Shown piece by piece: positions 30,819 to 62,318 of a stretch of 64,000 bases of DNA; the stretch's first letter is position 1, and the number at the start of each line of letters is the position of its first letter. This DNA is from a virus. The notes under the pieces were generated by a model. That model was not told the origin of the DNA and did no database searches. It saw nothing but the letters and a program-made list of their open reading frames with translations. Both the position numbers and the translations under genes were made by a program. The DNA lies in the IMG/VR virus record IMGVR_UViG_3300021376_000030, positions 20,920 through 84,919 of that record; one strand, 5' to 3'.

Positions 30819-32088
30819 CATTCTATTCACTACAAAGCAGCTTTCTGCAGAAAGTATATCTAATGCTAATAAATTACTGCAATATAGAGGGCCAGATAAT
30901 TTTAATACTTATCAAACCGGGGTGGGTACATTTTTACACAATAGATTAGATATTGCTGGCAACTGCTTACAGCCTTTCTCTGAACATGACATAGATATAA
31001 TTTTTAATGGCGAAATATATAATTATACCGAAGATAATGAAGCCCTCTATATTCTTAATCTTTATAGGAAATATGGAATAAAATTTGCACAATATTTGGA
31101 TGGTGAATACGCTATACTGTTAGTTGACAATAAAAGGCAGAAAATACTCTCTGCAACAGACCCGTTTAAAACAAAACCATTATGGGTTTCTATAGATAAT
31201 GGGTTTCACGTTTCTACATATAAAAGCGCATTGTTGGAGTGTGGTATATCTAATGTTGAGCCTCATAAGCCAAATACAGTAATGGTTTATGATATTAATA
31301 AAAACAAGATAAGAAATTATACAAATATTACGTTTGATTTAAGGCAACATAAGCAAACTTATGAAGACTGGATTGCCGCTTTTAAGCTATCTATATTAAA
31401 TAGATCTAAAACAGATAAAAAAATATTTATAGGGTTAAGCAGCGGCTATGATAGCGGCTGTATTGCTTGTGAATTAAACAATATTAAAAAGCCTTTTAAC
31501 GCATATAGCATTGTAAACAATGAAAATTATAATATTATTCAGGAAAGATGTAATATATTAAACAATGTTGAAATGATTGATTATAATGAAAAAAACAACC
31601 TTTATGTATTGTCACACTTTCAAAAGTATTGTGAGCTAGATACGAATACAGAATATGGGTATTTGGAAGATAGATCATCTATACCCTTGATGCATATTGG
31701 AATTCGCGCAAAAAATAGTGGTTGTAAGATATTCTTTTCTGGTACTGGGTGTGACGAGATTATAGGCGATTACTATGTAAAAGGTAATTATGATCAAGAC
31801 AAAGCGTCCTGCTTTCAAGGAAAATTTCCTAACGATCTTAATTCTATCTTTCCATGGAAAAACGTCTTTAACGGGACAATGCGAAAATATCTTACGAAAG
31901 ATGAATATATTATCGGTTGTCTAGGAATTGAAGCCCGGTATCCGTTTTTGGACAAACACCTCGTTCAAGAATTTTTGTGGCTATTACCAGAATTAAAAAA
32001 TGCTTTTTATAAAGCACCTCTTAGGGATTACCTAATACAAAATAATTTTCCGTATAAAGAAAATGAAAAGAAAGGCTTTCGTGTCTAA
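30811..32088 (+). CDS. asnB: Asparagine synthetase-like (glutamine-hydrolysing), 425 aa
   Basis: Cys2 is the glutaminase nucleophile after Met removal. LQYRGPDNF, LHNRLDI and IFNGEIYNY complete the class II glutaminase site, and GLSSGYDSG (about residues 208-216) is the ATP pyrophosphatase loop, followed by FFSGTGCDEIIG. The protein is shorter than most AsnB proteins (about 550 or more). Members near sugar-modifying genes often amidate or make amide bonds on other substrates. The closeness to GT2 and GT8 genes makes that a real alternative to asparagine synthesis. Confidence 0.9.
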   Translation: MCSILFTTKQLSAESISNANKLLQYRGPDNFNTYQTGVGTFLHNRLDIAGNCLQPFSEHDIDIIFNGEIYNYTEDNEALYILNLYRKYGIKFAQYLDGEYAILLVDNKRQKILSATDPFKTKPLWVSIDNGFHVSTYKSALLECGISNVEPHKPNTVMVYDINKNKIRNYTNITFDLRQHKQTYEDWIAAFKLSILNRSKTDKKIFIGLSSGYDSGCIACELNNIKKPFNAYSIVNNENYNIIQERCNILNNVEMIDYNEKNNLYVLSHFQKYCELDTNTEYGYLEDRSSIPLMHIGIRAKNSGCKIFFSGTGCDEIIGDYYVKGNYDQDKASCFQGKFPNDLNSIFPWKNVFNGTMRKYLTKDEYIIGCLGIEARYPFLDKHLVQEFLWLLPELKNAFYKAPLRDYLIQNNFPYKENEKKGFRV

Positions 32089-32866
32089 AGCAATTGTTTA
32101 TATTTTAAACAAAGAGTTTTTAACTGCATTTAAAGTATCTTTGTATTCGTTATACAAGTATAATAGTTTAAAAAACATTAAATTAGTTATTTTTTATTAC
32201 GAAGACTGTCTATTACCGGAACTAAGTACTATTTTTAGTAAATTAAAATTATCTGTAGATTTTAAACCAATAAATAGAGGCCTCTATAACAATTGTATAT
32301 TTGATGGTGCATACAGAAAGTGGCAATTTAATCCTGGATATAGATTTGAACTGTTTGATTTAAAGTTTGATGAGATACTGTATATAGATTGCGATACTTT
32401 AATTAATGGCGATATAACTTCATTCTTTAGTCAACAGGGTAATTTTTGTGCATGCCCGTTAAATCCGAGAATCGCTATTTACTATGCAAGAGGCAACGGG
32501 TTTAACGCCGGTATTTTTTTAGTAAGAAAGAAATATATTTCTAAATCATTTAAAAGGAAATTAATTAAGTTTTGCGAAGAGTCAAATAATTTATCTGGTA
32601 ATCAAGTTGTTCTAAATCATTTTTTTAAAAACAAGACAACTTTTTTGCCGCAAAAATATAATGTCACAACAGATGTATTGTCGTCTGAGCTATTGGCCGA
32701 AGGTCTTATATTTCATTTTGTTGGTGAACTCAAGCCCTGGAATAATAAACTGCAGGAAAGTTATAATGAATATGTGTTAAGTAATACAGGATTGTTTTTA
32801 TTGTCAAAATTATTTTTAAGATACAAACAATTAGAAAAAGAGTCTAGTTTATTTTTTAATAACTAA
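32063..32866 (+). CDS. GT8-type glycosyltransferase, 267 aa
   Basis: It is a paralog of the protein at 27164: ILYIDCDTLINGD (D109-x-D111), GFNAGIFLV, GNQVVLNHF and LIFHFVGELKPWNN correspond to the same GT8 landmarks. It overlaps asnB by 26 bp and ends just before a late motif. It probably adds a sugar in the same pathway. Donor unknown. Confidence 0.85.
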   Translation: MKRKAFVSKAIVYILNKEFLTAFKVSLYSLYKYNSLKNIKLVIFYYEDCLLPELSTIFSKLKLSVDFKPINRGLYNNCIFDGAYRKWQFNPGYRFELFDLKFDEILYIDCDTLINGDITSFFSQQGNFCACPLNPRIAIYYARGNGFNAGIFLVRKKYISKSFKRKLIKFCEESNNLSGNQVVLNHFFKNKTTFLPQKYNVTTDVLSSELLAEGLIFHFVGELKPWNNKLQESYNEYVLSNTGLFLLSKLFLRYKQLEKESSLFFNN

Positions 32867-32867
32867 A

Positions 32868-32875
32868 TATAAATA
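32868..32875 (+). promoter_or_regulatory. T4-type late promoter motif TATAAATA
   Basis: A perfect TATAAATA ends 5 nt before ATG 32881, next to the end of the GT8 gene. This suggests the following small gene is late. Confidence 0.5.
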
Positions 32876-32880
32876 TCCTT

Positions 32881-33126
32881 ATGTCAGATATTGATCCAAA
32901 AATTTACGGGGCAAAAATTTACGAAGCAGAGATTAAACAATTTTTTAATTTGGAAAAACCTGTACCTAAAATATTCAAAAACGGTAAAAAATTAAGAGAA
33001 GATTATGTTGCAAGAGAAGAATTTCTAAAAAAAATTAGCCTGTGCAATGGTTGTGAATTAGTTCAGTTTAGGGCTTATTTTATTACTCAGTTGCTTGATA
33101 ATATTAAAGACCCTGCAGTTAATTGA
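32881..33126 (+). CDS. Hypothetical protein, 81 aa
   Basis: ATG 32881 lies 5 nt after TATAAATA. The product is Lys/Glu-rich, with KIYGAKIYEAEIKQFFNLEK and a CNGC pair near residue 60. It is soluble with no signal sequence. It separates the GT/asnB operon from the PIG-L gene. Function unknown. Confidence 0.55.
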   Translation: MSDIDPKIYGAKIYEAEIKQFFNLEKPVPKIFKNGKKLREDYVAREEFLKKISLCNGCELVQFRAYFITQLLDNIKDPAVN

Positions 33127-33150
33127 GTTTAATTAAATAGTATATATAAT
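33123..33150 (+). promoter_or_regulatory. Sigma70-like promoter TTGAGT-N16-TATAAT
   Basis: TTGAGT (33123-33128) overlaps the end of the previous gene; TATAAT (33145-33150) follows after 16 bp, and the ATG comes 6 nt later at 33157. Same layout as the promoters at 50968 and 54401. Confidence 0.55.
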
Positions 33151-33156
33151 AAAGCT

Positions 33157-33810
33157 ATGAATGTCCTGTGTTTAGTACCGCACGGTGATGATGAAATTTT
33201 GTCTGCAGGCGGTTCATTGATCAAACATAAAAGGCAAGGCGATACACTAACAATATGCATTCTCAAAGGAGATAAGGACCCTCGTAATGCTCAACAACTA
33301 GAGAATAGTAAAGAGGTTGCGCGTTTTCTTAATGTAGACAAACTACAACATTTAGATATTTCAGAATCTCTTCTTAGCTCGGATATAAAGTATGTGGCAG
33401 GTGCAATAGAAAGTTTTTTATTAAATGAGCCGTTTTTTGATATTTTGTATACTGTTTCTCCTTACGATAATCATCAAGATCATCGGGGAGTCTTTTCTGC
33501 AATTAATGTTGCTTTAAGAGCAACAGGGCCTTTTGTTATTCCTCGCATTTTATGTGGTGAAACACTATCTTCATCTGATCAAACTTTTGGAATTACAAAA
33601 AAGTTTACTCCCACCTATTACAATATTTTATCCGAAGATGATATTAATAAAAAAGTTGAAGCTCTTTTATTCTATCCTGGTGAGCTTAGACAGCCTCCCC
33701 ATCCCCGGTCAATACAATTAATAAAAACACTAGCAGCGTTAAGAGGGTCTGAATGTAATAGCAATTATGCAGAAGCGTTTATGGTGGCCCGGTGGCATAT
33801 CAATGAGTAG
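33157..33810 (+). CDS. PIG-L/LmbE-family deacetylase, 217 aa
   Basis: The zinc-binding signature PHGDDE lies at residues 8-13, and SPYDNHQDHRGV supplies the HxxH site (H106, H109). PIG-L enzymes remove acetyl groups from N-acetyl sugars, for example GlcNAc-inositol. That would free an amine, the very group an amidinotransferase would need. It follows a TATAAT promoter by 6 nt, and the next gene overlaps its end by 8 bp. Confidence 0.85.
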   Translation: MNVLCLVPHGDDEILSAGGSLIKHKRQGDTLTICILKGDKDPRNAQQLENSKEVARFLNVDKLQHLDISESLLSSDIKYVAGAIESFLLNEPFFDILYTVSPYDNHQDHRGVFSAINVALRATGPFVIPRILCGETLSSSDQTFGITKKFTPTYYNILSEDDINKKVEALLFYPGELRQPPHPRSIQLIKTLAALRGSECNSNYAEAFMVARWHINE

Positions 33811-34705
33811 CATACTTGTGACAGGGGGGAGTGGGTTTATAGGTAAAGAAATTATTAAGCATTTAGAATGGGTAAAATATAGACCTGTTAATTTTGATAT
33901 TAGCGATAGAAACAATCTTTTATGCATAAATCAACTTGAGCGATATATTAAAAATACTGATATGGTAATTCATATTGCCGCTCAGGCTAATTTTATGGAA
34001 ATGGAAAATTTATTAGGAGCACAAAGCGGTGTAATGATAAATGTTGTAGGGACTCATAATATAGCCTATCTTTGTGCAAAGTATAAAAAGCCTCTAATAT
34101 ATGGATCCACAGTATGCACTTACGGTAATATTGAAACAATAGGCAAAGAGAATTCAGCGCTAAATCCATCTGACCTGTATGCTTATTCAAAGCTAGCCGG
34201 TGAAAATATAATATTAGGGTATGCAAAAACGTTTGGGCTTGAATATATTATTTTACGTTTTGCAACTACATATGGGCCAGGTATAAGACCTGCATTAGGT
34301 GTTCATAAATTCATTACTGCCGCTAAAAAAAATCTTCCATTAAAGATACATGGAAACGGAAAACAAACACGCACCCAAACTCATGTATATGACATTGCTT
34401 CGGGTGTCGTTAAAGCTGTTCAACGATTTAATAAAGCTAAAAATAATATAATAAATCTATCTGCATCCGAACAAATTACAGCAAAAAAAATGGCTAAAGA
34501 TATAATTAAAAAGCTAAATAGTAAGTCAAAAATTATTAATATAGATCAACGAAAAAACCAAACGTTTTATGAGAGGTTTTCTACAGATAAAGCAAAAAAG
34601 CTATTAAAATGGAGCCCGGTTTATAGCTGGGAAAAAGGTATAAAAAATACTATTGAATGGTTTATTAGCGCAAAAGATGGGCGTCATCAACTGCCATCCC
34701 GGTAA
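33803..34705 (+). CDS. NAD-dependent sugar epimerase/dehydratase, 300 aa
   Basis: The extended SDR fold is clear: ILVTGGSGFIGKEIIKHLEW, then YAYSKLAGENIILGYAKTF (YxxxK) and RFATTYGPG. The family acts on nucleotide sugars. I use ATG 33803, which gives MSSILVTGG; the longer frame from 33767 is inside the deacetylase gene. The reaction is not determined by sequence alone. Its last 41 bp overlap the converging radical SAM gene. Confidence 0.85.
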   Translation: MSSILVTGGSGFIGKEIIKHLEWVKYRPVNFDISDRNNLLCINQLERYIKNTDMVIHIAAQANFMEMENLLGAQSGVMINVVGTHNIAYLCAKYKKPLIYGSTVCTYGNIETIGKENSALNPSDLYAYSKLAGENIILGYAKTFGLEYIILRFATTYGPGIRPALGVHKFITAAKKNLPLKIHGNGKQTRTQTHVYDIASGVVKAVQRFNKAKNNIINLSASEQITAKKMAKDIIKKLNSKSKIINIDQRKNQTFYERFSTDKAKKLLKWSPVYSWEKGIKNTIEWFISAKDGRHQLPSR

Positions 34706-36023
34706 TAGTTCGTACAAAAGTATCCATTGGCTCATCTCTAAACAGCTCTATACAATATTTTTCGTTTATAGTATAAAGCTTGTGCACCTTTTTTTCGTCT
34801 AAATTATACTCTTGGATAATTTTTTGAGCTAAATTATATCTTTCAGTAAAATTTACCCGCAGATAATCTACTAAGTATATTGCACTAGGATTATTTGTTT
34901 CATGATTTACTACACAATATTTTATATATTTTAATGCATCTAGAAATGCATTAAAGTTATAACCAGAATTACCATCAGAATATTCCTGAGCATCAATAGA
35001 GTAATAATGGTCAAGCGCTTGCTGCAGCGAAAGCTTGTCGGTGTATCTCAAGTTTAACATCAGAGGAAATTCTAAATGATGAAAATAAAGCTTTGCCCGA
35101 TATTTATTTGCTAAATCTAAGATATTCTTTAAGTCAAAAAGGTTTTCAGTACATACCACTGGAGATAAAAAAAACTGTTTATTATTTTTATCTAATGCTT
35201 CTTTAAATTTTTCTATATTTGAAATTACTCTATCATATTGTGCATTTTTTCTTATTCGTTCATATACCTCTTTTGTAGCTGCATCAAGTGAAACGCTTAA
35301 GTTTATATTAAGATTTTCCAGATAACGTTTAATTTTATCATTATATATAGTACCGTTTGTTTGTATATAGCAAAGTGTTTGAGATTTTTGCTCTAAAAGA
35401 AAATCAAATATCTTGTAATATGCCCCTATTAAAAACGGCTCACCTCCAAAAAAATTAATTCGTTTTGCGTTTAAAAGAAAAGGCTTTAATTCTTCAAAAA
35501 ACTCTTCAGTTTCGTAAACTTCAAGTAAAGGTTCTCGTTTTTCTCTATTTTTTCTAATAGAAGAGGAATAAACACCATTACACATTATACATTCTAAATT
35601 GCACTTATTACTGAGCTCAAAGTCCAATCTATATGGGTATTTCAATTTTCTAAAACTATCATCATACCTCTCAGATAACGCTGAGTCTTCTGTATCATAA
35701 TGTTTTATTTTTAATGTTTTGTAGTTGGCTGAATCAAGCATTAATTCGCACTGCTGACACCCTAGCTTGAAGCTAAAACTATCCATTTCCTCTCTTAGCT
35801 TCTTTAACTCTTCTCCATTCCAAATTTCCATCAAACTTCTTTGCGGATAAAAGCCAACCGCATAGTCCCTGTTTGCACAACATACAGTTATTCGTCCTCC
35901 CTGATTAAAATTCATAGTAGTAAATGGTGCTTGGCAAAGCGTGCCAAATTTGTCTTTTCTATTTTGCAAGAACTGAGTTTTGGTTAGATGCTTTTGACTA
36001 CTAAGTAGCTCTTGTATAATCAC
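34665..36023 (-). CDS. Radical SAM enzyme with N-terminal SPASM/twitch-like domain, 452 aa
   Basis: CNLECIMC (C141, C145, C148) is the radical SAM cluster motif, followed by FFGGEPFLIG. Before it comes a region with C30, C48-C49 and C89-x-x-C92, with GRITVCC and LMEIWNGEELKKLREEM, which looks like a SPASM/twitch module moved ahead of the core. Normal SPASM proteins have it after. The protein is long (452 aa) and single-gene on this strand. Substrate unknown; the island suggests sugar or peptide chemistry. Confidence 0.8.
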   Translation of the reverse strand: MIIQELLSSQKHLTKTQFLQNRKDKFGTLCQAPFTTMNFNQGGRITVCCANRDYAVGFYPQRSLMEIWNGEELKKLREEMDSFSFKLGCQQCELMLDSANYKTLKIKHYDTEDSALSERYDDSFRKLKYPYRLDFELSNKCNLECIMCNGVYSSSIRKNREKREPLLEVYETEEFFEELKPFLLNAKRINFFGGEPFLIGAYYKIFDFLLEQKSQTLCYIQTNGTIYNDKIKRYLENLNINLSVSLDAATKEVYERIRKNAQYDRVISNIEKFKEALDKNNKQFFLSPVVCTENLFDLKNILDLANKYRAKLYFHHLEFPLMLNLRYTDKLSLQQALDHYYSIDAQEYSDGNSGYNFNAFLDALKYIKYCVVNHETNNPSAIYLVDYLRVNFTERYNLAQKIIQEYNLDEKKVHKLYTINEKYCIELFRDEPMDTFVRTITGMAVDDAHLLR

Positions 36024-36044
36024 GTCTTATTTACTATATATGAT

Positions 36045-36374
36045 ATGATAGTACAGTATATAATTGGTTTAGGTATTCTGACAACATCTTTATTGATATG
36101 GTTTTATAGCCCGCTACGGACTTCTTTAGGTCAAATATTTTTTGATAGAAATATATTTTCTAATGATCAATTTGAGACCGCGCTACTTATTAAGTCTCCA
36201 TTTTTAGGAAAATTATTGGGGTGTTATATCTGCCTTTCATTCTGGTTATCTTTATTAATCGGTATCGCTAGTCATTTTTACTTTAATACGCCTTTAACCT
36301 TTATTCCTTTGGTGTGGTTTACCTACCCCGGCCTTGCTTATATATACAAAGCAATAATTGATAGATGCAACTAA
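36045..36374 (+). CDS. Small polytopic membrane protein, 109 aa
   Basis: I use ATG 36045; the frame can be extended to 36012 only by entering the divergent gene. There are about three membrane segments (residues about 3-20, 58-78, 80-100), the middle one containing GCYICLSFWLSLL. The CxxC at the membrane edge resembles small DUF1360-like proteins, but I am unsure. It overlaps the next radical SAM gene by 10 bp, so the two are co-expressed and might form a complex. Confidence 0.65.
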   Translation: MIVQYIIGLGILTTSLLIWFYSPLRTSLGQIFFDRNIFSNDQFETALLIKSPFLGKLLGCYICLSFWLSLLIGIASHFYFNTPLTFIPLVWFTYPGLAYIYKAIIDRCN

Positions 36375-37195
36375 AGCTTCCTACCTACACTGTAGAAATT
36401 AGTCTCTATGTTGGATGTAGTGTAAACTGTAATTACTGTCCCCATTTAAGCCTACTTAAAAAAAGCTCAGCAAAGTCTTTAACAGTATCAGATTATAAAC
36501 TCATACTCTCTAAAATACCAAAGTTTGTTGGAATAGCTTTTATTGGTATGAGCGAGCCTTTGTTACATAAAGATTTTAAGGAAATCTTATTACATACAAT
36601 TAATGAAGGGTACGAGGTGGTTTGCTTTACTACTCTACCAGACAAATACCCAGAACATGTAGATTTATTTTTAGATTCAAATCTATGGTTAGTTAGATCT
36701 CTCCACATACGAGATGATCAAATGTCATATAAGAATAATAGCGATTATTATTACAGTAATATAGAAAAGTATTTTTCTCAAATTAATAAAAATTGTAGCG
36801 GCATAAAAAAGGATAGAATCTCTATTTTATCAAAAAATATAGATTTAAAAATACAGACACTTCTACAAAAGTATGATTTATTAGACTATGCTCACAGGAG
36901 TGAGCCCTTTACCAGGATAAATGCACCTATGAAGTATAAAGCCAAGCCTAATAAGAAACTAAAAGGTAAGATTTATTGCTCTGAGCATCACGATAAAATA
37001 CAGCATTTATTACCAGATGGTGATGTGGTCCTATGTTGTATGGATGTAGAAAAAAATCATGTATTGGGCAATCTCTATAAAGATAACTACGAATCATTGT
37101 TTAGAAGCAAAGAATATAATAAAATTCTTAATGGCTTTAATGATCACAAGGTAAACACTATATGCAGATCATGCGCATTTGCCAGAAAAGCATAA
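36365..37195 (+). CDS. Radical SAM/SPASM-type enzyme, 276 aa (short paralog)
   Basis: GCSVNCNYC gives C18, C22, C25. The later LLPDGDVVLCCMDVEKNHVL and TICRSCAFA match the SPASM-like region of the protein at 24907 almost residue for residue. It lacks the 150-residue N-terminal extension of that paralog. It begins in the membrane protein gene's end. The pair of paralogs on opposite strands suggests duplication then domain gain or loss. Confidence 0.85.
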   Translation: MQLKLPTYTVEISLYVGCSVNCNYCPHLSLLKKSSAKSLTVSDYKLILSKIPKFVGIAFIGMSEPLLHKDFKEILLHTINEGYEVVCFTTLPDKYPEHVDLFLDSNLWLVRSLHIRDDQMSYKNNSDYYYSNIEKYFSQINKNCSGIKKDRISILSKNIDLKIQTLLQKYDLLDYAHRSEPFTRINAPMKYKAKPNKKLKGKIYCSEHHDKIQHLLPDGDVVLCCMDVEKNHVLGNLYKDNYESLFRSKEYNKILNGFNDHKVNTICRSCAFARKA

Positions 37196-37789: not shown

Positions 37790-38236
37790 ATGGAAAAGCT
37801 TTTCTTGTCGTGGAGCGATATTTATAACTCCTTAAACTGCATTGTTAATGAAACAAGTAATTATAGTAATAATGCTGCTATTGTAGGGTTGTCTCGTGGA
37901 GGGTTGGTACCAGCAGTAATCTTTTCACATTTAAAAAATATTAACACTTTTTATACTTGCGGAATAAAAAGTTACAATGAAACTAATAAAAGCACAGAAG
38001 TTATGTTTCAGTATCCAGATAAAAAGATTCTAAGCGATAAAGATGTTGTATATGTTATAGATGATATATGTGATTCAGGCGGTACCTTAAAATTTATGGA
38101 AAATTATTTGTTGCCTTTAAAGATGGTTTCTATTACTCTTGTATATAGAACAAATGAAGTCTACAAACCAAATTATTTTGGCACTCAGCTTTCGGACAAC
38201 AGGTGGGTTGTTTTTCCGTGGGAAGAGACTAAATAA
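37790..38236 (+). CDS. Type I phosphoribosyltransferase, 148 aa
   Basis: The PRPP-binding motif VYVIDDICDSGGTL lies at residues 87-100, and AIVGLSRGGLVPAVIFSHL gives the second loop of the type I PRTase fold. Xanthine/hypoxanthine/guanine phosphoribosyltransferases are the closest family by motif, so a salvage role for a purine base is the simplest idea. It might salvage purines released from host DNA. Possible weak promoter TTGATA-N15-TAAAAT lies 5 nt before the ATG. Confidence 0.78.
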   Translation: MEKLFLSWSDIYNSLNCIVNETSNYSNNAAIVGLSRGGLVPAVIFSHLKNINTFYTCGIKSYNETNKSTEVMFQYPDKKILSDKDVVYVIDDICDSGGTLKFMENYLLPLKMVSITLVYRTNEVYKPNYFGTQLSDNRWVVFPWEETK

Positions 38237-50822: not shown

Positions 50823-51000
50823 ATATTATTTAAATTGATAATACTGTTTTTACATGTATTATTATGGTGTGAATACATTTTTAGTAAACGTAGATTTCAT
50901 AAAAAGCGGAAATATTAGTTATTAAAAGAATCGGTCAACAAAGAGTTTAGAGTATGTTTTGGCCTATTTGATTTTAATGTTACATCTTTTATAATATTTT
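50823..51000. promoter_or_regulatory. Divergent region between hub operon and DNA-modification cluster
   Basis: This 178-bp AT-rich gap contains the plus-strand promoter at 50968. On the minus side TAAATAAT lies close to the start of the 3D-domain gene. I see no ORF or RNA gene here. Confidence 0.4.
50968..50995 (+). promoter_or_regulatory. Sigma70-like promoter TTGATT-N16-TATAAT for the DpdA-like gene
   Basis: TTGATT (50968-50973) and TATAAT (50990-50995) are 16 bp apart, and the ATG follows 5 nt later at 51001. The queF promoter at 54401 has the same boxes and spacing. Confidence 0.6.
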
Positions 51001-51831
51001 ATGATAATGAAAGTATCTCACGAAATTCCCATCTCTCTACTTGAAGAGTCAAAAAATTTTAATGATTTTGATTACTGCCTGGTACATTTATTGTATCAAA
51101 ATGCCGGTTCACCAGAACAGTTAGATTATTATACATATTATAAGTTTGCCAGATCTTTATATAATAGAGAGGTTTTACTAGATAATTCCATTTTTGAGCT
51201 TGGAAAGGCGTTTGATCCAGAAAAATTTTATGATTCGATAATTTCCTTACAGCCTAATATGTTTATTGTACCAGATGTATTAGAAGATTCACAAGCAACA
51301 ATGGTAAGCTTTAAGGGTTTTAGGGAAAATATAAAATCTATTAAAAATGAATTTACTACTAGATCTATAGGAGCTGTTCAAGGTAAGACCTGGCAGGATT
51401 TAAAAACATGTTATAAGTTTCTAAGCTATGAGGCAGATATGATTGCTATTAGCTTTGATTTTAGTTACTACCATATTATTGGTGAGGGCAAAACACCATT
51501 GGAGCGCTTTTGCTCAGGGCGCCAGCGGTTTATTACAGATTTAATAAATAATGGTGTATGGGATTGGAACAAACCCCATCATTTGCTTGGGTGCTCGCTA
51601 GCAAAGGAGTTTAGATATTATATCGATAACAACATTCACAACATTGTTTCTTGTGATACTAGTAATCCAATTGTTGCTGCAATTCATGGATTAAAATATG
51701 ATGCTGATTACGGGCTGCAAACCAAGCCATCAACTAAGCTAGCTGATTTAATAACACATCAATTCACTCAAGATCAACTCGAACTAGTAAAATACAATAC
51801 TAGTATGTTTAAAAAAATCATTCGTAGATGA
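51001..51831 (+). CDS. dpdA: DpdA-like guanine transglycosylase (TGT-like), 276 aa
   Basis: The protein has TGT-barrel landmarks: VLLDNSIFEL, NMFIVPDVLED (D92), RSIGAVQGKTWQDL, DMIAISFDFSYYHI (D153), HHLLGCSLAKEF and NIVSCDTSNP (D219). The CxCxxC-H zinc site of bacterial TGT is missing, as in phage DpdA proteins. DpdA swaps guanine in DNA for a 7-deazaguanine base. QueF lies in the same cluster, which supports this. The start is ATG 51001 or 51007. It overlaps the formyltransferase gene by 4 bp. A tRNA substrate cannot be excluded by sequence. Confidence 0.75.
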   Translation: MIMKVSHEIPISLLEESKNFNDFDYCLVHLLYQNAGSPEQLDYYTYYKFARSLYNREVLLDNSIFELGKAFDPEKFYDSIISLQPNMFIVPDVLEDSQATMVSFKGFRENIKSIKNEFTTRSIGAVQGKTWQDLKTCYKFLSYEADMIAISFDFSYYHIIGEGKTPLERFCSGRQRFITDLINNGVWDWNKPHHLLGCSLAKEFRYYIDNNIHNIVSCDTSNPIVAAIHGLKYDADYGLQTKPSTKLADLITHQFTQDQLELVKYNTSMFKKIIRR

Positions 51832-52400
51832 GACCCTGGATTGCTTTTTTTAGTCAAACTGGAACAGAGATTCACAATCTTTCTAATGCACTAGGCATAT
51901 ATCCAGATTGCATTGTAACCAACAAGCAAGATCATACCACAACAAATGAATGCTTAATCAAAACTACAGAGTTTAGACAACATAAACTTAATTTACCTAA
52001 CCTGTGGTGCCAGCTACCCAAGACTCCTACAGTAAAAGAATACAACGATGTGTTAGGGCTTTTTAATAACCCAGTCATTACACTGCATGGTTATTTGAGA
52101 ATCATTCCAAAAGAAATCTGTGAAAAGTATGAAATATACAATTTACATCCAGGTTTAATAGACAAATATCCTGAACTGAAAGGGTTTAATCCACAGGAAA
52201 AAGCATTTGCAGAGGGGTATAGACTTGCCGGGTGCGTTATTCATAGAGTAGTACCAGATGTGGACGAAGGTGAAATACTAATGAGTCAGGGCACATGCAT
52301 AGAGGGGTTAGATTTACCAGGTGTATACGATAAATTGCATAGCGTGGCATTTGATTTGTGGAAAAGCTTTTTTGCTGCATATAAAATGTTAGAAGAATAA
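51828..52400 (+). CDS. PurN-like formyltransferase, candidate preQ1 formyltransferase (DpdN-like), 190 aa
   Basis: The formyltransferase catalytic set is intact: N105-x-H107 in IYNLHPGLI, and D146 in VVPDVDEGEI, matching N106, H108 and D144 of E. coli PurN. The 10-formyl-THF binding half is shorter. It begins inside the dpdA-like gene (ATGA). DpdN, described as a dPreQ1 formyltransferase, is the function that fits a formyltransferase beside DpdA and QueF. A purine-biosynthesis GAR transformylase is the alternative. Confidence 0.75.
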   Translation: MRPWIAFFSQTGTEIHNLSNALGIYPDCIVTNKQDHTTTNECLIKTTEFRQHKLNLPNLWCQLPKTPTVKEYNDVLGLFNNPVITLHGYLRIIPKEICEKYEIYNLHPGLIDKYPELKGFNPQEKAFAEGYRLAGCVIHRVVPDVDEGEILMSQGTCIEGLDLPGVYDKLHSVAFDLWKSFFAAYKMLEE

Positions 52401-52401
52401 A

Positions 52402-53355
52402 ATGGATATTTCTCTACACTACGAGAATGTGTTTCTCAAACCTAATCATAATTCTGTTAAATCGAGAGCAGAAATAGATACAGATATAAATTTTCTCGGC
52501 AAAGTTTTTAGATTGCCCATTATACCAGCTAATATGAAATGTTGTGTTGATCAAGATACATGTGAAATGTTAGATAAAAACAATTACTTCTATATAATGC
52601 ACAGGTTTGATGAAGATATTTTAAATTTTGTTAGATATGCAAATGGACAGAATTTTAATACAGTTTCAATCAGTGTGGGTATACAACAAAAAGATAAAAA
52701 TTTAATTGATGCATTGGCAAATAGCTTAATGCGAGTTGATTATATTACCATAGATGTGGCACATGGTCACCATACCAAAGTATCAGACCAAATTAAACAT
52801 ATTAAAAACACTATTCCAAATGTAAAGGTTATTGCTGGTAATGTTGCGACACTTAGAGGTGTAGAATATCTTCGTGATGCAGGCGCAGATGCAGTTAAGG
52901 TCGGTATAGGTGGTGGATATGCTTGTACAACTAAAGACAAGACTGGGTTTACGTATCCAATGTTTAGCTGTGTAATGGAATGTGCCGCAGACATACCAGT
53001 TATTGCGGATGGTGGGATCCGGTGCAATGGAGATATAGCAAAAGCGCTAGTGGCTGGAGCAAGCATGGTTATGTGCGGTTCAATATTTGCAGCTTGTTCT
53101 GATAGCCCTGCTCCAGTTGTTAAAGACTCTAATGGTAGGAGGTTTAAGCAATATTATGGTTCAGCGAGTATTCATAACAAACTTGATAAAAAGAATATAG
53201 AGGGTACAATGAAGCTTATGGAAACTGATTCTTTTACCTATAGAGAGAAATTATTAGAAATAGCTCAGGATTTGCAGAGTGCTATCAGCTACGCAGGTGG
53301 CTATAATCTCAAGTCGTTAAACTTATTTAACGTAAAATACGGGGTAAAATTATGA
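52402..53355 (+). CDS. guaC: GMP reductase-like protein (IMPDH/GMPR family), 317 aa
   Basis: The fold is a TIM barrel with DYITIDVAHGH, KVIAGNVATLRG, KVGIGGGYACTTK (catalytic C175), VIADGGIRCNGD and ALVAGASMVMCGS. The Cys-Thr-Thr loop and absent CBS domains favour GMP reductase over IMP dehydrogenase. GMPR turns GMP into IMP with NADPH. It follows the formyltransferase by 1 bp. It may drain free guanine nucleotides or recycle guanine that the transglycosylase releases once salvaged. I consider both guesses. Confidence 0.85.
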   Translation: MDISLHYENVFLKPNHNSVKSRAEIDTDINFLGKVFRLPIIPANMKCCVDQDTCEMLDKNNYFYIMHRFDEDILNFVRYANGQNFNTVSISVGIQQKDKNLIDALANSLMRVDYITIDVAHGHHTKVSDQIKHIKNTIPNVKVIAGNVATLRGVEYLRDAGADAVKVGIGGGYACTTKDKTGFTYPMFSCVMECAADIPVIADGGIRCNGDIAKALVAGASMVMCGSIFAACSDSPAPVVKDSNGRRFKQYYGSASIHNKLDKKNIEGTMKLMETDSFTYREKLLEIAQDLQSAISYAGGYNLKSLNLFNVKYGVKL

Positions 53356-53708
53356 GCCCGGTTAATAGCGATGAAGTTGTAAAGGTTGTTGAAAGTACAT
53401 ATCCAGAAACCTGCGAGGAGTTTAAAAAGATTCAGCAAGAACAATATGAGGTGTTTTGCAAGAAGCAGTTTGATTACGGGCCACATAACATTTCATTAGG
53501 ATCTGATTTACATAAAAAGGAAGATATTACTGCTTCTATCTCTGCTATTGTAGTACGACTAAATGATAAAATTCAAAGATTAATTAATTTAGTTTTGCGT
53601 AAAAAAACCTTTGAATCCGCAAACGAACCTATATTTGACGCATTTAGTGACACGTCTGTTTATTGTATTATTGCAGAAATTGTCAAGCGTAAGAAATGGT
53701 GTAAATAA
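53352..53708 (+). CDS. DUF1599/Nmad1-like protein, 118 aa
   Basis: The blocks FCKKQFDYGPHNISLGSD, VVRLNDKIQRLINLVLRK and FDAFSDTSVYCIIAEIVKRK match the pattern of DUF1599, also called nucleotide modification associated domain 1 (K-x-x-DYG ... DKxxRLxNL ... DTxxDxxNY). MazG-like nucleotide pyrophosphohydrolases are close relatives. It starts 4 bp before the guaC stop. The name itself comes from linkage to base-modification genes in phages, as found here. Confidence 0.7.
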   Translation: MSPVNSDEVVKVVESTYPETCEEFKKIQQEQYEVFCKKQFDYGPHNISLGSDLHKKEDITASISAIVVRLNDKIQRLINLVLRKKTFESANEPIFDAFSDTSVYCIIAEIVKRKKWCK

Positions 53709-53839
53709 TGTCGGCAGTAAATATTTTTAAAAATAAGCATAATGAATTGCGCAAGCTAAAAAAAGAAAACAGAATACTTAAAGCTGAAATTATTTTCTTG
53801 AAGAAGTTGTTATATGGTATAAAATTAGGTAAAGAATGA
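53708..53839 (+). CDS. Small coiled-coil peptide, 43 aa
   Basis: ATG 53708 to TGA 53837-53839. The peptide is one basic amphipathic helix (NELRKLKKENRILKAEIIFL), with leucine-zipper-like spacing. Its last bases ATGA overlap the kinase start, so its translation is coupled on both sides. It may be a small partner or dimeriser of a neighbour. Function unknown. Confidence 0.55.
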   Translation: MSAVNIFKNKHNELRKLKKENRILKAEIIFLKKLLYGIKLGKE

Positions 53840-54420
53840 ACATTACTTTTACTGGTCCGCAGTGTTCAGGTAAGACTACATTGCTTAAGCAAATGAGGCA
53901 AACTAGAGGCATTATGGATCAATTTTTTTATATAGATGAAGTTACTAGACTAGTTAAAAGAGAGTTTAATGTAGGTATTAATGAAGAAGGTGCAAATGAT
54001 GTAACACAATTGTTAATCATAAATAAGGAACTAGAAAATTTATTTAAATACAATTATGAGATGTGGCCTGGATATAGAGGAGCGGTGCATGATAGGTGTT
54101 TATTAGATGGTTTGGTCTTTACAGAATATTTTTACGAAAAGAAATTAGTTAGTCTGCAAATTTGGTCTCAGGCTTTGAGTTATTGGAATAGGTTTCATAG
54201 TAAATATGATATTATTTTTTATCCTGATCCGCATGAAATTAAATTAGAAGATGATGGTGAGAGAAGTAATAATGCTGAGTTTAGAAATGCTATTATAGAA
54301 AAATATGAAACGTACTATCTAAATCAATTTCAGTGGAAAGACAGAATAGTAAGATTAAAAGGTACAGTACAAGAGAGATTAGATAAAATTAAGAGTATTC
54401 TTGATTTTTATACAAAATAA
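53836..54420 (+). CDS. P-loop nucleotide/nucleoside kinase-like protein, 194 aa
   Basis: NITFTGPQCSGKTTLLKQM is a Walker A motif, HDRCLLDGLVFTEYFY gives the substrate-side acidic group, and DGERSNNAEFRNAIIEKYE resembles the lid of NadR-like and dNMP-kinase-like AAA_28 proteins. It could phosphorylate a (deoxy)nucleoside or modified base monophosphate. Deoxynucleotide supply or modified-nucleotide salvage are both possible. It precedes queF by 14 bp and shares the cluster. Confidence 0.72.
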   Translation: MNITFTGPQCSGKTTLLKQMRQTRGIMDQFFYIDEVTRLVKREFNVGINEEGANDVTQLLIINKELENLFKYNYEMWPGYRGAVHDRCLLDGLVFTEYFYEKKLVSLQIWSQALSYWNRFHSKYDIIFYPDPHEIKLEDDGERSNNAEFRNAIIEKYETYYLNQFQWKDRIVRLKGTVQERLDKIKSILDFYTK

Positions 54421-54428
54421 TATATAAT
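54401..54428 (+). promoter_or_regulatory. Sigma70-like promoter TTGATT-N16-TATAAT for queF
   Basis: TTGATT (54401-54406) lies within the kinase gene end and TATAAT (54423-54428) 16 bp later; the ATG follows after 6 nt at 54435. It matches the promoter of the DpdA-like gene. Confidence 0.6.
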
Positions 54429-54434
54429 ATACTA

Positions 54435-55352
54435 ATGAGTAATACAGTTTTAGATAATAGCAATATTTCCAAACATTTAGGTAGAATTACTGGCTACAAG
54501 TCAACATATGATCCTTCACTTCTAGTACGTGAGCCAAGAATTAATAACCGTAAACATTTGAACATTAATGATGATGATGCACCTTTTAGTGGCTTTGATA
54601 TTTGGAATGCGTATGAGGTATCATGCCTTACGAACGAGGGCATGCCAATTGCTGCCATTGCTAAGATTGTATATCCTTGCAAAAACCATTATATTGTAGA
54701 GAGTAAATCAATTAAGCTATACATGAATTCCTTTAACATGCAAGTATTCAAGGGAAATATTATTCAGATTCTTAATGAGTTGCAAAGCACTATTGCGCGT
54801 GACCTATCCACATTGTTAGAAACCGATGTCAAGGTTTGTGTTCGTCTAGCTAAGGATGTTAGTGATGATGTTTTCTATCAACCAGTATTTTGCAATAAAG
54901 ATTATCCTACTTTAGAAAATGGTATAGATGTTACGTATATTAAACCAATATCGTATACTGAAAATCCAGATATTCTTAGTGGTATAGAAGCATTAGAGCC
55001 TAAAGTTCAAAGATTCCATTCTGCTCTTCTTAAGTCAAACTGCAGAGTCACTTCCCAACCAGATTGGGGTGATGTTTATATTCACTATAAGGGGAAATAC
55101 GAAATTAATCCTACCTCGTTGCTTCAGTATATTGTTTCTTTTAGAGACGAATGTCATTTTCATGAAGAGATTTGTGAGACCATTTATATGAGACTATTTA
55201 ATAAGTTTAATCCAGAAGAGTTAGTTGTAAGTTGTCTATATGTTAGACGCGGTGGTATAGATATTAATCCGACGAGAGCGAGTAGATACGATCTACTAGA
55301 CAAGGCTCTTATTGACGAGTTTAAGTACTTTACAAAAACCGCAAGACAGTAA
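54435..55352 (+). CDS. queF: NADPH-dependent 7-cyano-7-deazaguanine (preQ0) reductase QueF, 305 aa
   Basis: All bimodular QueF signatures are present: HYIVESKSIKLYMNSFNM (E89-S-K-S), LLKSNCRVTSQPDWGDVYIH with the nucleophile C203 and D210, CHFHEEICETIY, and VRRGGIDINPTRAS. QueF reduces the nitrile of preQ0 to the aminomethyl of preQ1. The length (305) fits the long E. coli type (282). In a bacterium it serves tRNA queuosine. Together with the TGT-like and formyltransferase genes here it points to preQ1-type bases in phage DNA. Confidence 0.97.
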   Translation: MSNTVLDNSNISKHLGRITGYKSTYDPSLLVREPRINNRKHLNINDDDAPFSGFDIWNAYEVSCLTNEGMPIAAIAKIVYPCKNHYIVESKSIKLYMNSFNMQVFKGNIIQILNELQSTIARDLSTLLETDVKVCVRLAKDVSDDVFYQPVFCNKDYPTLENGIDVTYIKPISYTENPDILSGIEALEPKVQRFHSALLKSNCRVTSQPDWGDVYIHYKGKYEINPTSLLQYIVSFRDECHFHEEICETIYMRLFNKFNPEELVVSCLYVRRGGIDINPTRASRYDLLDKALIDEFKYFTKTARQ

Positions 55353-55353
55353 G

Positions 55354-55719
55354 TTATTTTAACTTAAGCAGATAGTTCGTGTGGTTTATAACACCTAGAA
55401 TTTCATCCCTTATATTCAATAAATCAGAATCAGTTTGTGGGTTTAGCTTATTGGTTATTTCTTGAAGATAACTTCTGTATGTGTCTAATATTGTTGTCAG
55501 ATCAATTTCTTTTATATCAAATAGCTTTATATCCAGACTCCCATTACTAAAATCAGCATCATTTCTTCCGAGAGCCGTCTCAACAAAATTGTCAATTAAA
55601 CCGTCCAAGGCTTTATATGCCTTACCAAACGCTTTATGAGCAGCATAACTTTTTGTCTGCCAATGAAGTACGCGAAACTGGTTCTGCATTTGAAGCAAAT
55701 CTTGAATAGCTGCATGCAT
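55354..55719 (-). CDS. Small ferritin/Dps-like helical protein (DUF5856-like), 121 aa
   Basis: The first half reads LLQMQNQFRVLHWQTKSYAAHKAFGKAY, residues beyond 20 omitted, with the LHWQTKSYxxHKAFG pattern seen in a T4-like phage family that looks like a small four-helix, ferritin-like protein. The Dps-type iron ligands are not fully present, so DNA or protein binding is as likely as iron storage. It abuts the queF gene tail-to-tail with 1 bp between. Expressed alone on this strand. Confidence 0.6.
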   Translation of the reverse strand: MHAAIQDLLQMQNQFRVLHWQTKSYAAHKAFGKAYKALDGLIDNFVETALGRNDADFSNGSLDIKLFDIKEIDLTTILDTYRSYLQEITNKLNPQTDSDLLNIRDEILGVINHTNYLLKLK

Positions 55720-58487: not shown

Positions 58488-61400
58488 GTGAGTCAGAACA
58501 TACTTATAACTCCTGGCAAGGGATCTATATTTTTTGATAAAAGTGTTGCTGGTGCCTCGACAAAAACTAATACTGGGTCTGCAATAGAAATCTTATACGA
58601 TAGTAATGGGGGATTAGGATTTCATACTCCGATTTATCCAACTGCAACCGTTTTCGTTAGTGCAGGAAATGTTATAGCTACAAACTCTTTAAGTGCAAAA
58701 ATAATTTATTCTAATTATCCAGGTCTTGCACCAGATTATCCCGGTCAAAATAGTAATTACTGGGGGTCAGTTTACACAACAACTAATGCAGAATCTGCTT
58801 CCTGGGGTTCTGGTGGAAGTGCAAGCACGGTATTAGCAGCTAACAGTGCTAATTGGGATAGTACTTATTCCTCGGTAAAAACTAACTCAGCTAATTGGGA
58901 TTCAACATATACATCTTCCAAGAATAATAGTGCCAATTGGGATTCAACCTACACCTCGGCTTCACAAAATAGCGCTAATTGGGACTCTACATATACTTCA
59001 GTAACCAACAACTCAGCTAACTGGGATAGTGTATACACATCTTCCAAGAATAATAGTGCTAACTGGGATAGTGTTTATACATCTTCTAAAAATAATAGTG
59101 CCAATTGGGATAGTGTCTATACATCTTCTAAGAATAATAGTGCCAATTGGGATAGTGTATACACATCTTCCAAGAATAATAGTGCCAATTGGGATTCAAC
59201 CTACACCTCGGCTTCACAAAATAGCGCTAATTGGGACTCTACATATACTTCAGTAACCAACAACTCAGCTGATTGGGATTCAACCTACACCTCATCTTCA
59301 CAAAATAGCGCCAATTGGGATTCAACATATACATCTTCTAAGAATAATAGTGCCAATTGGGATAGTGTCTATACATCTTCTAAGAATAATAGCGCTAACT
59401 GGGATAGTGTCTATACATCTTCCAAGAATAATAGTGCCAATTGGGATAGTGTATACACATCTTCCAAGAATAATAGTGCCAATTGGGATAGTGTATACAC
59501 ATCTTCCAAGAATAATAGTGCCAATTGGGACTCTACATATACTTCAGTAACCAACAACTCAGCTAACTGGGATAGTGTCTATACATCTTCCAAAAATAAC
59601 TCAGCTAATTGGGATAGTGTTTATACATCTTCCAAGAATAATAGTGCTAATTGGGATTCAACATATACATCTTCCAAAAATAACTCAGCTAACTGGAATA
59701 GTGTATATACATCTTCCAAAAATAACTCAGCTAATTGGGACTCTGTTTATACATCTTCCATTAATAACTCAGCTAATTGGGACTCTGTTTATACATCTTC
59801 CATTAATAACTCAGCTAATTGGGATTCAACATATACATCTTCCAAGAATAATAGTGCCAATTGGGACTCTGTTTACACATCTTCTAAGAATAATAGTGCC
59901 AATTGGGACTCTGTTTACACATCCTCCAAGAATAATAGTGCCAGTTGGGATAGTGTATATACAAGCTCTTCACAGACAAGCAGTAGCTGGAATTCAGTAT
60001 ATACTCAAATGCAATATAGTAGCGCGGCATGGTTAGATGAGTTTGAGGCTAATACCTTATATTTTAAAGTTTCCGGTGGTACTATTTACGGTGATGTTAA
60101 TATTCAACACGATTTAGTGGTTGGTAATAATTTATTTGTAACAGGAAGTGCCACCTTTGCAAGCACTATTTTTACGTCTACAAGCGCTTTGTCCGTTATT
60201 AATACTGGTCAAGGGCCTGCACTATTTGTTAAGCAGGGTCCAGGCCCGGGCGATATAGCCTCTTTTTATGATGCAGATGGTATAGAAGCTCTTCATATTG
60301 GAGATGCAAAATATACGCTAGGTCAAGATCCTGATGGTGTTATCGGTATTAAAACCTCATTCCCTAACAAAACATTATCTGTTGTAGGAGAAATTAGTGC
60401 AACCGGTAGTATCTACACTACTGGTAAATTCTTATCATCAGTGCCCCCGGGCGGTGTTAATGGTTCAAGCACTGATTTATGGGATTTATTCTTCGATAAA
60501 ATAACAGGTAATGATATATATACAAATGTTTATATAAACTCTGCTTCCTGGGGTTCTGGTGGAAGTGCAAGCACGGTATTAGCAACTAATAGTGCTAATT
60601 GGGATAGTACTTATTCCTCAGTAAAAACTAACTCAGCTAATTGGGATAGTACATACACTTCAGTAAAAAATAATTCAGCTAATTGGGATAGTGTATATAC
60701 ATCTTCTAAGAATAACAGCGCCAATTGGGATTCAACATATACCTCTACCAAAAATAATAGCGCTAACTGGGATAGTGTTTATACATCTTCTAAAAATAAT
60801 AGTGCCAATTGGGACTCTACATATACTTCAGTAACCAACAACTCAGCTAACTGGGATAGTGTATATACATCTTCTAAGAATAATAGTGCCAATTGGGACT
60901 CTGTTTATACATCTTCCAAGAATAATAGTGCCAATTGGGACTCTGTTTATACATCTTCCAAGAATAACTCAGCTAACTGGAATAGTGTATATACATCTTC
61001 CAAAAATAACTCAGCTAATTGGGACTCTGTTTATACATCTTCCAAAAATAACTCAGCTAATTGGGATTCCACTTATACTAGTTCTTCTCAAAATAGTGCT
61101 AATTGGGATTCCACTTATACTAGTTCTTCTCAAAATAGTGCTAATTGGGATTCCACTTATACTAGTTCTTCTCAAAATAGTGCTAATTGGGATTCTACTT
61201 ATACTAGTTCTTCTCAAAATAGTGCTAATTGGGACTCTGTTTATACATCTTCCAAAAATAACTCAGCTAATTGGGATTCCACTTATACTAGTTCTTCTCA
61301 AAATAGTGCTAATTGGGATTCAGTATACACATCTTCCAAAAATAACTCAGCTAATTGGGATTCCACTTATACTAGTTCTTCTCAAAATAGTGCTAATTGG

Positions 61401-62318
61401 GATAGCGTATATAGTTCTAGCAAAACAAATAGTGCCAACTGGAATTCAGTATATACTAGTTCTTCACAAAATAGCGCCAACTGGAATAGTACGTATACTT
61501 CAGTAACCAATAATTCAGCTAATTGGGATAGTACGTATACTTCAGTAACCAACAACTCAGCTGATTGGGATAGTGTTTATACATCGTCTTCACAAAATAG
61601 CGCCAACTGGGATAGTGTATACACTTCAATGTACCAAAATAGCTCAGGTTGGCTAGATCAAGACGAGGCTAGTGCAATATTCTTAAAGGTATCAGGTGGT
61701 ATTATTGCAATTGATCCTGCAGACCCGAACAATGGCGACGGCGGTACACTGACTGTCAATAAAGGATTGAGCGCTGCTGTTAGCAGTGGTAACTTTGTAG
61801 TTAAACCTAACTTTAATTTAGGTAATAACTCTTTAATATTTGCTGACGGTGCTAACGAGAGGGTTGGTATTCGTACAAATACACCATATTATACCCTGCA
61901 TGTTAATGGTGATATAAGTGGTACAACTGGCTATTATAATCATATTGCAGCCGAAACCAAGTCATTCTATATTAAGCATCCATCTAAACCTGGTATGCAT
62001 TTGCAATATGGGTCTCTAGAGTCACCCTATCATGGAATTCGTTTGACTGGAAGCGGTATTATAGAAAACGATAGCGTAGTGATTGAATTACCCAATTATG
62101 TACCTCATTTAGTTAGAACAGATGATTTTAATGTACAGCTAACAGGTTATAAACATAGTAAAAAACTATGGGTTGATAGTATAAATGTATCTCAAGATCC
62201 ATATGCAAGTAATTTTGTAGTAAAAAAACACTTTACTTTATTTAAAAAACCATACAAGTTTTTCTGGTCATTTAGTGCTATAAGAAAAGATATTCCTCCG
62301 TTGCAAGTGGAGGTATAA
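58488..62318 (+). CDS. Giant repeat tail fibre, 1276 aa
   Basis: Two long blocks of 14-residue repeats (consensus NSANWDSVYTSSKN), about 28 and 25 copies, flank a SALSVINTGQGPALFV module. The C-terminus (about 1150-1276) carries the same KSFYIKHPSKPGMHLQYGSL domain as the previous gene. Trp/Tyr spacing every 14 residues suggests a repeated trimeric rod. It starts at GTG 58488. Variable unit types (TSSKN, TSASQ, TSVTN) are arranged in runs, as by unequal exchange. It is likely a very long fibre whose length can change. Confidence 0.88.
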   Translation: MSQNILITPGKGSIFFDKSVAGASTKTNTGSAIEILYDSNGGLGFHTPIYPTATVFVSAGNVIATNSLSAKIIYSNYPGLAPDYPGQNSNYWGSVYTTTNAESASWGSGGSASTVLAANSANWDSTYSSVKTNSANWDSTYTSSKNNSANWDSTYTSASQNSANWDSTYTSVTNNSANWDSVYTSSKNNSANWDSVYTSSKNNSANWDSVYTSSKNNSANWDSVYTSSKNNSANWDSTYTSASQNSANWDSTYTSVTNNSADWDSTYTSSSQNSANWDSTYTSSKNNSANWDSVYTSSKNNSANWDSVYTSSKNNSANWDSVYTSSKNNSANWDSVYTSSKNNSANWDSTYTSVTNNSANWDSVYTSSKNNSANWDSVYTSSKNNSANWDSTYTSSKNNSANWNSVYTSSKNNSANWDSVYTSSINNSANWDSVYTSSINNSANWDSTYTSSKNNSANWDSVYTSSKNNSANWDSVYTSSKNNSASWDSVYTSSSQTSSSWNSVYTQMQYSSAAWLDEFEANTLYFKVSGGTIYGDVNIQHDLVVGNNLFVTGSATFASTIFTSTSALSVINTGQGPALFVKQGPGPGDIASFYDADGIEALHIGDAKYTLGQDPDGVIGIKTSFPNKTLSVVGEISATGSIYTTGKFLSSVPPGGVNGSSTDLWDLFFDKITGNDIYTNVYINSASWGSGGSASTVLATNSANWDSTYSSVKTNSANWDSTYTSVKNNSANWDSVYTSSKNNSANWDSTYTSTKNNSANWDSVYTSSKNNSANWDSTYTSVTNNSANWDSVYTSSKNNSANWDSVYTSSKNNSANWDSVYTSSKNNSANWNSVYTSSKNNSANWDSVYTSSKNNSANWDSTYTSSSQNSANWDSTYTSSSQNSANWDSTYTSSSQNSANWDSTYTSSSQNSANWDSVYTSSKNNSANWDSTYTSSSQNSANWDSVYTSSKNNSANWDSTYTSSSQNSANWDSVYSSSKTNSANWNSVYTSSSQNSANWNSTYTSVTNNSANWDSTYTSVTNNSADWDSVYTSSSQNSANWDSVYTSMYQNSSGWLDQDEASAIFLKVSGGIIAIDPADPNNGDGGTLTVNKGLSAAVSSGNFVVKPNFNLGNNSLIFADGANERVGIRTNTPYYTLHVNGDISGTTGYYNHIAAETKSFYIKHPSKPGMHLQYGSLESPYHGIRLTGSGIIENDSVVIELPNYVPHLVRTDDFNVQLTGYKHSKKLWVDSINVSQDPYASNFVVKKHFTLFKKPYKFFWSFSAIRKDIPPLQVEV
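58840..60006 (+). repeat. 42-bp tandem coding repeats, block 1 (about 28 copies)
   Basis: The unit codes for 14 residues (for example AACTGGGATAGTGTTTATAC then TCTTCC). Copies differ mainly at third positions and in the SSK/ASQ/VTN segment. Blocks of identical neighbours suggest recent duplication or unequal crossing-over. Confidence 0.85.
60582..61630 (+). repeat. 42-bp tandem coding repeats, block 2 (about 25 copies)
   Basis: Same unit as block 1, with a run of near-identical GATTCCACTTATACTAGTTC copies around 61060-61220. The two blocks are separated by a 570-bp non-repeat module. The copy number should be unstable in cultures and read assemblies. Confidence 0.85.

Follow-up and report, generated by a model that had tools for sequence, protein, structure and literature searches.

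The stretch of DNA analysed here (the window, 64,000 nucleotides) covers positions 20920-84919 of the virus record IMGVR_UViG_3300021376_000030, which totals 84,919 bases. It carries structural genes, including those of a T4-like portal and a tail-sheath stabiliser, and encodes both subunits of a class I ribonucleotide reductase. Between positions 51001 and 55352, six open reading frames (ORFs) run in the same direction on the + strand, packed with overlaps or short gaps; all six that an initial annotation, made from the letters alone, had grouped into one cluster are indeed there. In order, they encode a predicted DNA guanine transglycosylase (DpdA), a PurN-type formyltransferase, a predicted GMP reductase, a DUF1599/Nmad1-like protein, a P-loop kinase and QueF, predicted to reduce 7-cyano-7-deazaguanine (preQ0) to 7-aminomethyl-7-deazaguanine (preQ1) (Table 1). 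We read this cluster as a probable operon for the modification of phage DNA with a 7-deazaguanine base.

The first protein, DpdA, matched no family in Pfam and NCBIfam searches and falls in PHROG 19058, listed as function unknown. When it was compared by tblastn with phage records, 20 records matched, 18 of them with an alignment covering 91% or more of its length; the 18 are 14 Campylobacter phage records and 4 Flavobacterium immuto phage records, the immuto homologue bearing the annotation DNA guanine transglycosylase DpdA. The protein shares 42-43% identity, over 91-94%, with immuto DpdA and with the Campylobacter Firehammervirus proteins. An AlphaFold (AF2) model built from 41 relatives reached a mean predicted local distance difference test (pLDDT) score of 93.4 and a predicted TM-score (pTM) of 0.90, and in a Foldseek search the 50 best PDB matches were, without exception, tRNA-guanine transglycosylases (TGTs), with E-values of 8e-10 to 2.5e-8 and a TM-score on the query of 0.62-0.70. 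Among viral models, its matches include proteins of Cellulophaga phage phiST and Vibrio phage nt-1 as well as annotated queuine tRNA-ribosyltransferases; nt-1 is the phage in which DpdA2 was defined. Weak matches to DUF6610 and CFAP77 were discarded as noise.

The conservation of the DpdA family points in the same direction as the fold. D61, D92, G197 and D219 are invariant in 204 of 204 relatives and Q127 is kept in 201, while the CxCxxC zinc motif of TGT was found in none of the 204, the window protein included. With their succession on the barrel strands and the motifs LDNS-F, VPD, QG, LLG and D-TSN as guides, the residues D61, D92, G197, D219 and Q127 would correspond to D102, D156, G230, D280 and Q203 of TGT. 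The protein had been described initially as TGT-like but devoid of zinc ligands, with another TIM-barrel family as the outcome that would speak against it; the search returned TGTs throughout its top 50 PDB matches, and the homologues of the protein include annotated phage DpdA. Judged by homology, the predicted DpdA belongs with the Firehammervirus and immuto enzymes and not with the DpdA1 or DpdA2 type, a group known in the literature as DpdA3.

QueF, whose identity had been regarded as certain, was confirmed by matches to Pfam QueF_N (4e-34) and QueF (1e-21), both above their cut-offs, and to TIGR03138 (1e-76), where the score of 258 bits does not reach the curated cut-off of 293. The NADPH motif E(S/L)KSxKLY is present as ESKSIKLYMNSF and was found in 80 of 88 QueF relatives, and the catalytic Cys/Asp pair lies in NCRVTSQPDWGD (NC..TSQPDWGD); motif and pair are both features of preQ1-making nitrile reductases. 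In Streptococcus phage Dp-1, a phage QueF together with DpdA is known from experiment to yield the deoxynucleoside of preQ1 (dPreQ1) in DNA (PMC6884629).

The formyltransferase matches Pfam Formyl_trans_N (3e-14) and, by its profile, PurN structures (3kcq at 2e-17); its score against the PurN model is 46.8 bits, the cut-off being 150.1, and it is 47% identical to the DpdA-adjacent protein of the immuto phages. In an alignment of 24 family members, N105 and H107 of the N-H-D triad are invariant and D146 is nearly so. S9 and G12 are invariant as well, and the N-terminal S..G(S/T) loop is kept at the position where PurN binds the phosphate of its substrate; because this loop is kept, the formyltransferase could act on a nucleotide or on DNA rather than on the free base. 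Three distinct loci, all of a single clade, carry the formyltransferase fused to the Nmad1-like protein.

We then turned to the company that dpdA keeps in other genomes. This DpdA is encoded by at least several hundred stretches of the virus collection, from which, together with immuto and CP220, 255 dpdA loci (208 distinct) were collected; the 131 with at least 4.5 kb of sequence downstream of dpdA were scored as informative. As the sample took the best 80 per scan, favouring relatives of the query, and many of the phages are related, the following counts are not unbiased frequencies. Near dpdA we found the kinase in 119 of the 131 loci, QueF in 119, the formyltransferase in 97, the Nmad1-like protein in 47 and GMP reductase in 25. 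QueF is nearby in 96 of the 97 loci that hold the formyltransferase, which makes preQ1 a fitting substrate for this enzyme. One lineage has a compact cluster of FolE, DpdA, formyltransferase, QueF and QueC, and the kinase was not found in its 82 kb record. Compact clusters of dpdA, formyltransferase, queF and a QueC-like gene, without the kinase, were seen at loci L249, L254, L258, L260, L265 and L266, with FolE upstream in most; in compact clusters a small DUF3310-like protein, assigned by reading the sequence, is encoded between formyltransferase and queF. At L164, L171, L176 and L194, dpdA stands apart from kinase and queF, with other genes between them, including large opposite-strand ORFs.

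The initial annotation had noted that folE, queD, queE and queC are missing from the window and had assumed another part of the genome, or the host, as the source of preQ0. None of the four was found in the whole 84,919-base record either; however, when this record and 18 relatives were searched, 14 of the 19 records proved to encode QueD, 15 QueC, 12 FolE and nine a QueE-like protein, and these candidates bear out, in the relatives, a supply from elsewhere in the genome. In two close relatives, QueD, FolE and QueC lie about 25, 27 and 47 kb (G002) or 24, 26 and 45 kb (G008) downstream of dpdA. In the present record only 13 kb follow dpdA, so that the absence of these genes is expected, and another record (L005), whose DpdA is identical to that of the window, breaks off about as far from dpdA. 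One relative encodes QueE, QueD and FolE side by side, and NCBIfam gives them these names at scores below cut-off. That FolE, QueD, QueE and QueC are absent from the virus itself was rejected as an explanation, since the record stops too early.

Taking into consideration the gene identities, the fold, the conserved active sites, the linkage and the finding in relatives of the pathway genes missing here, all drawn from sequence and structure, we infer the following substrates and order of steps. PreQ0 would be made by phage FolE, QueD, QueE and QueC encoded beyond the end of the record, and QueF would reduce it to preQ1. DpdA, with an aspartate as nucleophile, would put the 7-deazaguanine base in the place of guanine in phage DNA through a covalent exchange like that of TGT. 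The formyltransferase, a candidate DpdN, would transfer a formyl group from 10-formyltetrahydrofolate onto the aminomethyl arm, and the product would be 7-(formylamino)methyl-7-deazaguanine (fdPreQ1), formed either before or after insertion into DNA. Through the exchange, each modified site would free one guanine, which GMP reductase and a phosphoribosyltransferase encoded further upstream in the window could recycle to GMP and IMP. We give this pathway, from preQ0 through preQ1 and guanine exchange to fdPreQ1, a probability of about 0.78. The replacement of guanine by a preQ1-derived base had already been suggested initially, and is supported by the TGT fold, the homology to phage DpdA and the pathway genes of relatives; the cluster, as we read it, predicts formylated preQ1 rather than preQ1 itself. 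Such chemistry is already known at its core, as Cui et al. in 2023 (Nucleic Acids Research) reportedly described fdPreQ1 and predicted the enzyme DpdN. 7-Deazaguanine in phage DNA is a known disguise against host DNA-cutting enzymes, and the modification predicted here, whatever the extent of replacement, may likewise protect against restriction.

Some observations weigh against this pathway. DpdA is too divergent for the TGT and DpdA1 profiles and gave no PDB match by sequence, and hhalign of its profile to the DpdA of phages 9g, CAjan and Dp-1 was not significant; for this last reason its assignment rests on the fold and on the immuto and Firehammervirus homologues. The QueE candidates are weak, with single-sequence E-values of 1e-4 to 1e-6, and two examples match TIGR03963 (4e-15 and 4e-16) far below its cut-off. 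The formyltransferase is most PurN-like, and taken by itself its sequence leaves room for a role in purine synthesis. If it were a PurN homologue of that kind, the base in the DNA would be unformylated preQ1 or preQ0; the closest solved relatives of the enzyme are indeed PurN, and 21 of the 131 loci combine dpdA, kinase and QueF and lack the formyltransferase, without which the pathway evidently can run. We nevertheless hold an unformylated base to be unlikely, considering that the formyltransferase gene directly follows dpdA and almost always has QueF nearby, that its product forms a distinct family scoring well below the PurN cut-off and that other purine-synthesis genes were not seen in this operon.

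The remaining genes of the cluster are related to nucleotide enzymes. GMP reductase matches IMPDH (2e-56) and, as its best NCBIfam model, PRK05458 (6e-102), with a score of 341.3 bits against a cut-off of 344, and contains the catalytic CTT loop and the NIEG motif. Its gene lies within the operon in 21 loci and about 4 kb upstream in six, the two groups being 51% identical, and a gene of the IMPDH/GMP reductase family occurs in 14 of the 19 records; in comparison, the window protein found a match of any kind in 73 of 50,697 phage records. The kinase matches AAA_28 (1e-12) and a PHROG named 'thymidylate kinase' (3e-26); its AF2 model (pLDDT 90) matched deoxyadenosine kinase, deoxycytidine kinase (dCK), NadR and thymidylate kinase in Foldseek, and its P-loop and DR(S/Y/C) motif are present, the latter as DRC in 91 of 92. 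Among phage records, tblastn found relatives of this kinase in Campylobacter phages only. Together with Formyl_trans_N, these matches agree with the formyltransferase, GMP reductase and kinase of the initial annotation. Its Nmad1-like protein was a fair guess that holds in part: 11 of 19 family members match DUF1599/Nmad1, weakly (best E-value 0.0023), but the window protein itself gave no match to Pfam Nmad1. Outside the cluster, 13 kb upstream of dpdA, a gene encodes a xanthine/guanine phosphoribosyltransferase-like protein (Pribosyltran 7e-11, XPRT 1e-17) with homologues near dpdA in about 20 loci; guanine salvage is possible for this protein, and its link to the cluster is uncertain.

Judging from these families, the kinase, GMP reductase, Nmad1-like and XPRT-like proteins are probably there to keep purine pools in order around the exchange, for instance by salvaging the freed guanine; the kinase and the Nmad1-like protein may tune pools of deoxynucleoside triphosphates (dNTPs) or, less likely, act on modified nucleotides. 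A kinase acting at the level of the base, as in 5-hydroxymethyldeoxyuridine DNA, was thought unlikely, as preQ1 should offer no hydroxyl. The idea that the kinase is strictly obligatory was also ruled out, since 12 of the 131 loci have none nearby; four of these 12 have it elsewhere on the contig, at L164 and L194 about 8 kb from dpdA. Given also the compact lineage that appears to lack it, the kinase is a strong companion and not a strict requirement.

The same companions allow for a modification made partly on free nucleotides, where the kinase, the Nmad1-like protein and GMP reductase would lower dGTP and raise the modified dNTP, to be inserted by the polymerase, in the manner of T4 with its hydroxymethyl-dC or of the Z-genome phages. 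The prevalence near dpdA, Campylobacter phages included, of a kinase with the fold of deoxynucleoside and thymidylate kinases, its failure to appear in the searched stretches of three DpdA1 phages, the phosphate-type loop of the formyltransferase with its invariant S9 and G12, the fusion of this enzyme to the Nmad1-like protein and the frequency of IMPDH/GMP reductase-family genes all fit such a scheme. De novo synthesis of the nucleotide, however, needs no transglycosylase, yet the catalytic residues of DpdA are kept throughout, and in the compact lineage, whose record yielded no kinase, DpdA occurs together with formyltransferase and QueF. Phosphates of 2'-deoxy-7-amido-7-deazaguanosine (dADG) were reportedly not found in Firehammervirus infection (Crippen 2019), which also counts against nucleotide-level modification, and we regard it as improbable. 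A hybrid for DpdA3-type phages, in which base exchange is combined with replacement of the dNTP pool by a nucleotide-level arm of kinase, Nmad1/MazG-like pyrophosphohydrolase and GMP reductase, is likewise improbable. If it were true, the phage would make or amplify deoxynucleotides of formylated preQ1 ahead of replication, which would explain a complete replacement of G; to our knowledge, such a hybrid is not known for 7-deazaguanines.

Firehammervirus DNA is reportedly modified (again Crippen 2019, cited in PMC6884629), which counts against a role of these genes in tRNA. That they boost queuosine or another tRNA modification instead of modifying DNA is very improbable: QueF and TGT-like enzymes do make and insert preQ1 in bacterial tRNA, and tRNA modification has been suggested for phages with que genes but without DpdA (PMC6884629), yet the DpdA of the window has no zinc site and falls together with the Firehammervirus enzyme, and further queuosine genes were not seen in the cluster.

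As for expression of the operon, the promoter TTGATT-N16-TATAAT that had been noted before both dpdA and queF is present at both sites, ending 5 nt and 6 nt, respectively, before the ATG. With spacers of 15-18, the TTGATT-TATAAT motif has six exact matches in the whole window, where 0.41 would be expected. The true start of dpdA may be the ATG at 51007 and not that at 51001, because several relatives begin with MKVSHE. When 70 non-overlapping ORFs of the window were compared, TATAAT ended 0-9 nt upstream of the start codon in 10 cases, other 10-nt bins holding 0-3 each, and a Shine-Dalgarno-like motif was seen in only four of the 70; this combination suggests leaderless or nearly leaderless transcripts, or a host that does without Shine-Dalgarno signals.

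Table 1. Promoters and genes of the dpdA-queF cluster and the XPRT-like gene upstream (window coordinates)
Feature	Coordinates	Strand	Basis
Promoter TTGATT-N16-TATAAT before dpdA	50968..50995	+	exact match
DpdA, DpdA3-type DNA guanine transglycosylase (predicted)	51001..51831 (start possibly 51007)	+	homology, fold, conserved residues
PurN-type formyltransferase, candidate DpdN (preQ1 N-formyltransferase)	51828..52400	+	Formyl_trans_N
GMP reductase (predicted)	52402..53355	+	IMPDH, PRK05458
DUF1599/Nmad1-like protein, PHROG 1485	53352..53708	+	weak DUF1599 matches of relatives
Deoxynucleoside/thymidylate-kinase-fold P-loop kinase	53836..54420	+	AAA_28, fold
Promoter TTGATT-N16-TATAAT before queF, which overlaps the kinase gene at its 3' end	54401..54428	+	exact match
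QueF, long (E. coli-type) preQ0 nitrile reductase (predicted)	54435..55352	+	QueF_N, QueF, TIGR03138
Xanthine/guanine phosphoribosyltransferase-like protein	37790..38236	+	Pribosyltran, XPRT

Convergent to queF, a DUF5856 protein is encoded at 55354-55719 (- strand); its PHROG is named 'starvation-inducible transcriptional regulator', and it also occurs near dpdA in about 12 relatives. Elsewhere in the window are a DUF366 protein (PF04017, E-value 6e-23) at 15569-16156 (- strand) and, in the region 24910-37192, three SPASM radical-S-adenosylmethionine proteins at 24910-26193 (-), 34668-36023 (-) and 36365-37192 (+). Their neighbours include glycosyltransferases, a PIG-L deacetylase, an epimerase and an asparagine-synthase-like protein, and the region resembles an island for the modification of sugars or peptides. 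A protein of 1276 amino acids with dozens of NSANWDSxYTSSKN-type repeats (58488-62318) is probably a fibre.

The core of DpdA, QueF and formyltransferase would show a large, uncultured group of phages to share a chemistry that was described only recently, and the kinase, the GMP reductase and the fusion of formyltransferase and Nmad1-like protein point to steps that are as yet unstudied. These companions make it testable how a full replacement of G is reached and what becomes of the displaced purine, and the compact-cluster loci offer an almost complete pathway in one place.

Among known systems, the Z-genome (PurZ) and T4 hydroxymethylcytosine pathways are related in the general sense that phage enzymes reshape the dNTP pool; unlike them, the cluster of the window has a transglycosylase, and pool-level modification is only hypothetical here. 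The DpdA1 phages 9g, CAjan and Dp-1 share a TGT-like enzyme, an order of Asp/Gly motifs that is comparable by eye and the same preQ0 pathway, but no profile relation is detectable, and the kinase and formyltransferase families were not found in the searched stretches of these phages. Closer to the window are the Campylobacter Firehammerviruses of the CP220 group, whose DpdA has the identity given above and is followed by a gene of the same kinase family. No QueF or formyltransferase of these families was found in the examined stretch of CP220, and dADG reportedly replaces all deoxyguanosine in this group (Crippen 2019), whereas the base predicted for the window is derived from preQ1 and not an amide.

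The Flavobacterium phage immuto carries dpdA, formyltransferase, kinase and queF in the same order. It differs in having folE, queD and queE immediately upstream and in carrying a gene annotated as 'nucleoside triphosphate pyrophosphohydrolase', and neither GMP reductase nor the Nmad1-like protein was found in the stretch examined. Pyrophosphohydrolase-like genes also lie just upstream of dpdA at L003 and L179 (the latter recognised by reading the sequence), and in phage phiST (L285, 1601-5706) a distant DpdA homologue (E-value 1e-14) is accompanied by a MazG-like pyrophosphatase, FolE, QueE and QueD; QueF, formyltransferase and kinase of these families were not detected in phiST. Immuto is presumably among the phages studied by Cui in 2023, and the DpdN reportedly proposed there resembles the formyltransferase of the window in being a Formyl_trans_N protein beside DpdA and QueF. 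The core chemistry of the cluster is thus of a known kind, while its linkage to the kinase, the Nmad1-like protein and GMP reductase appears to be new.

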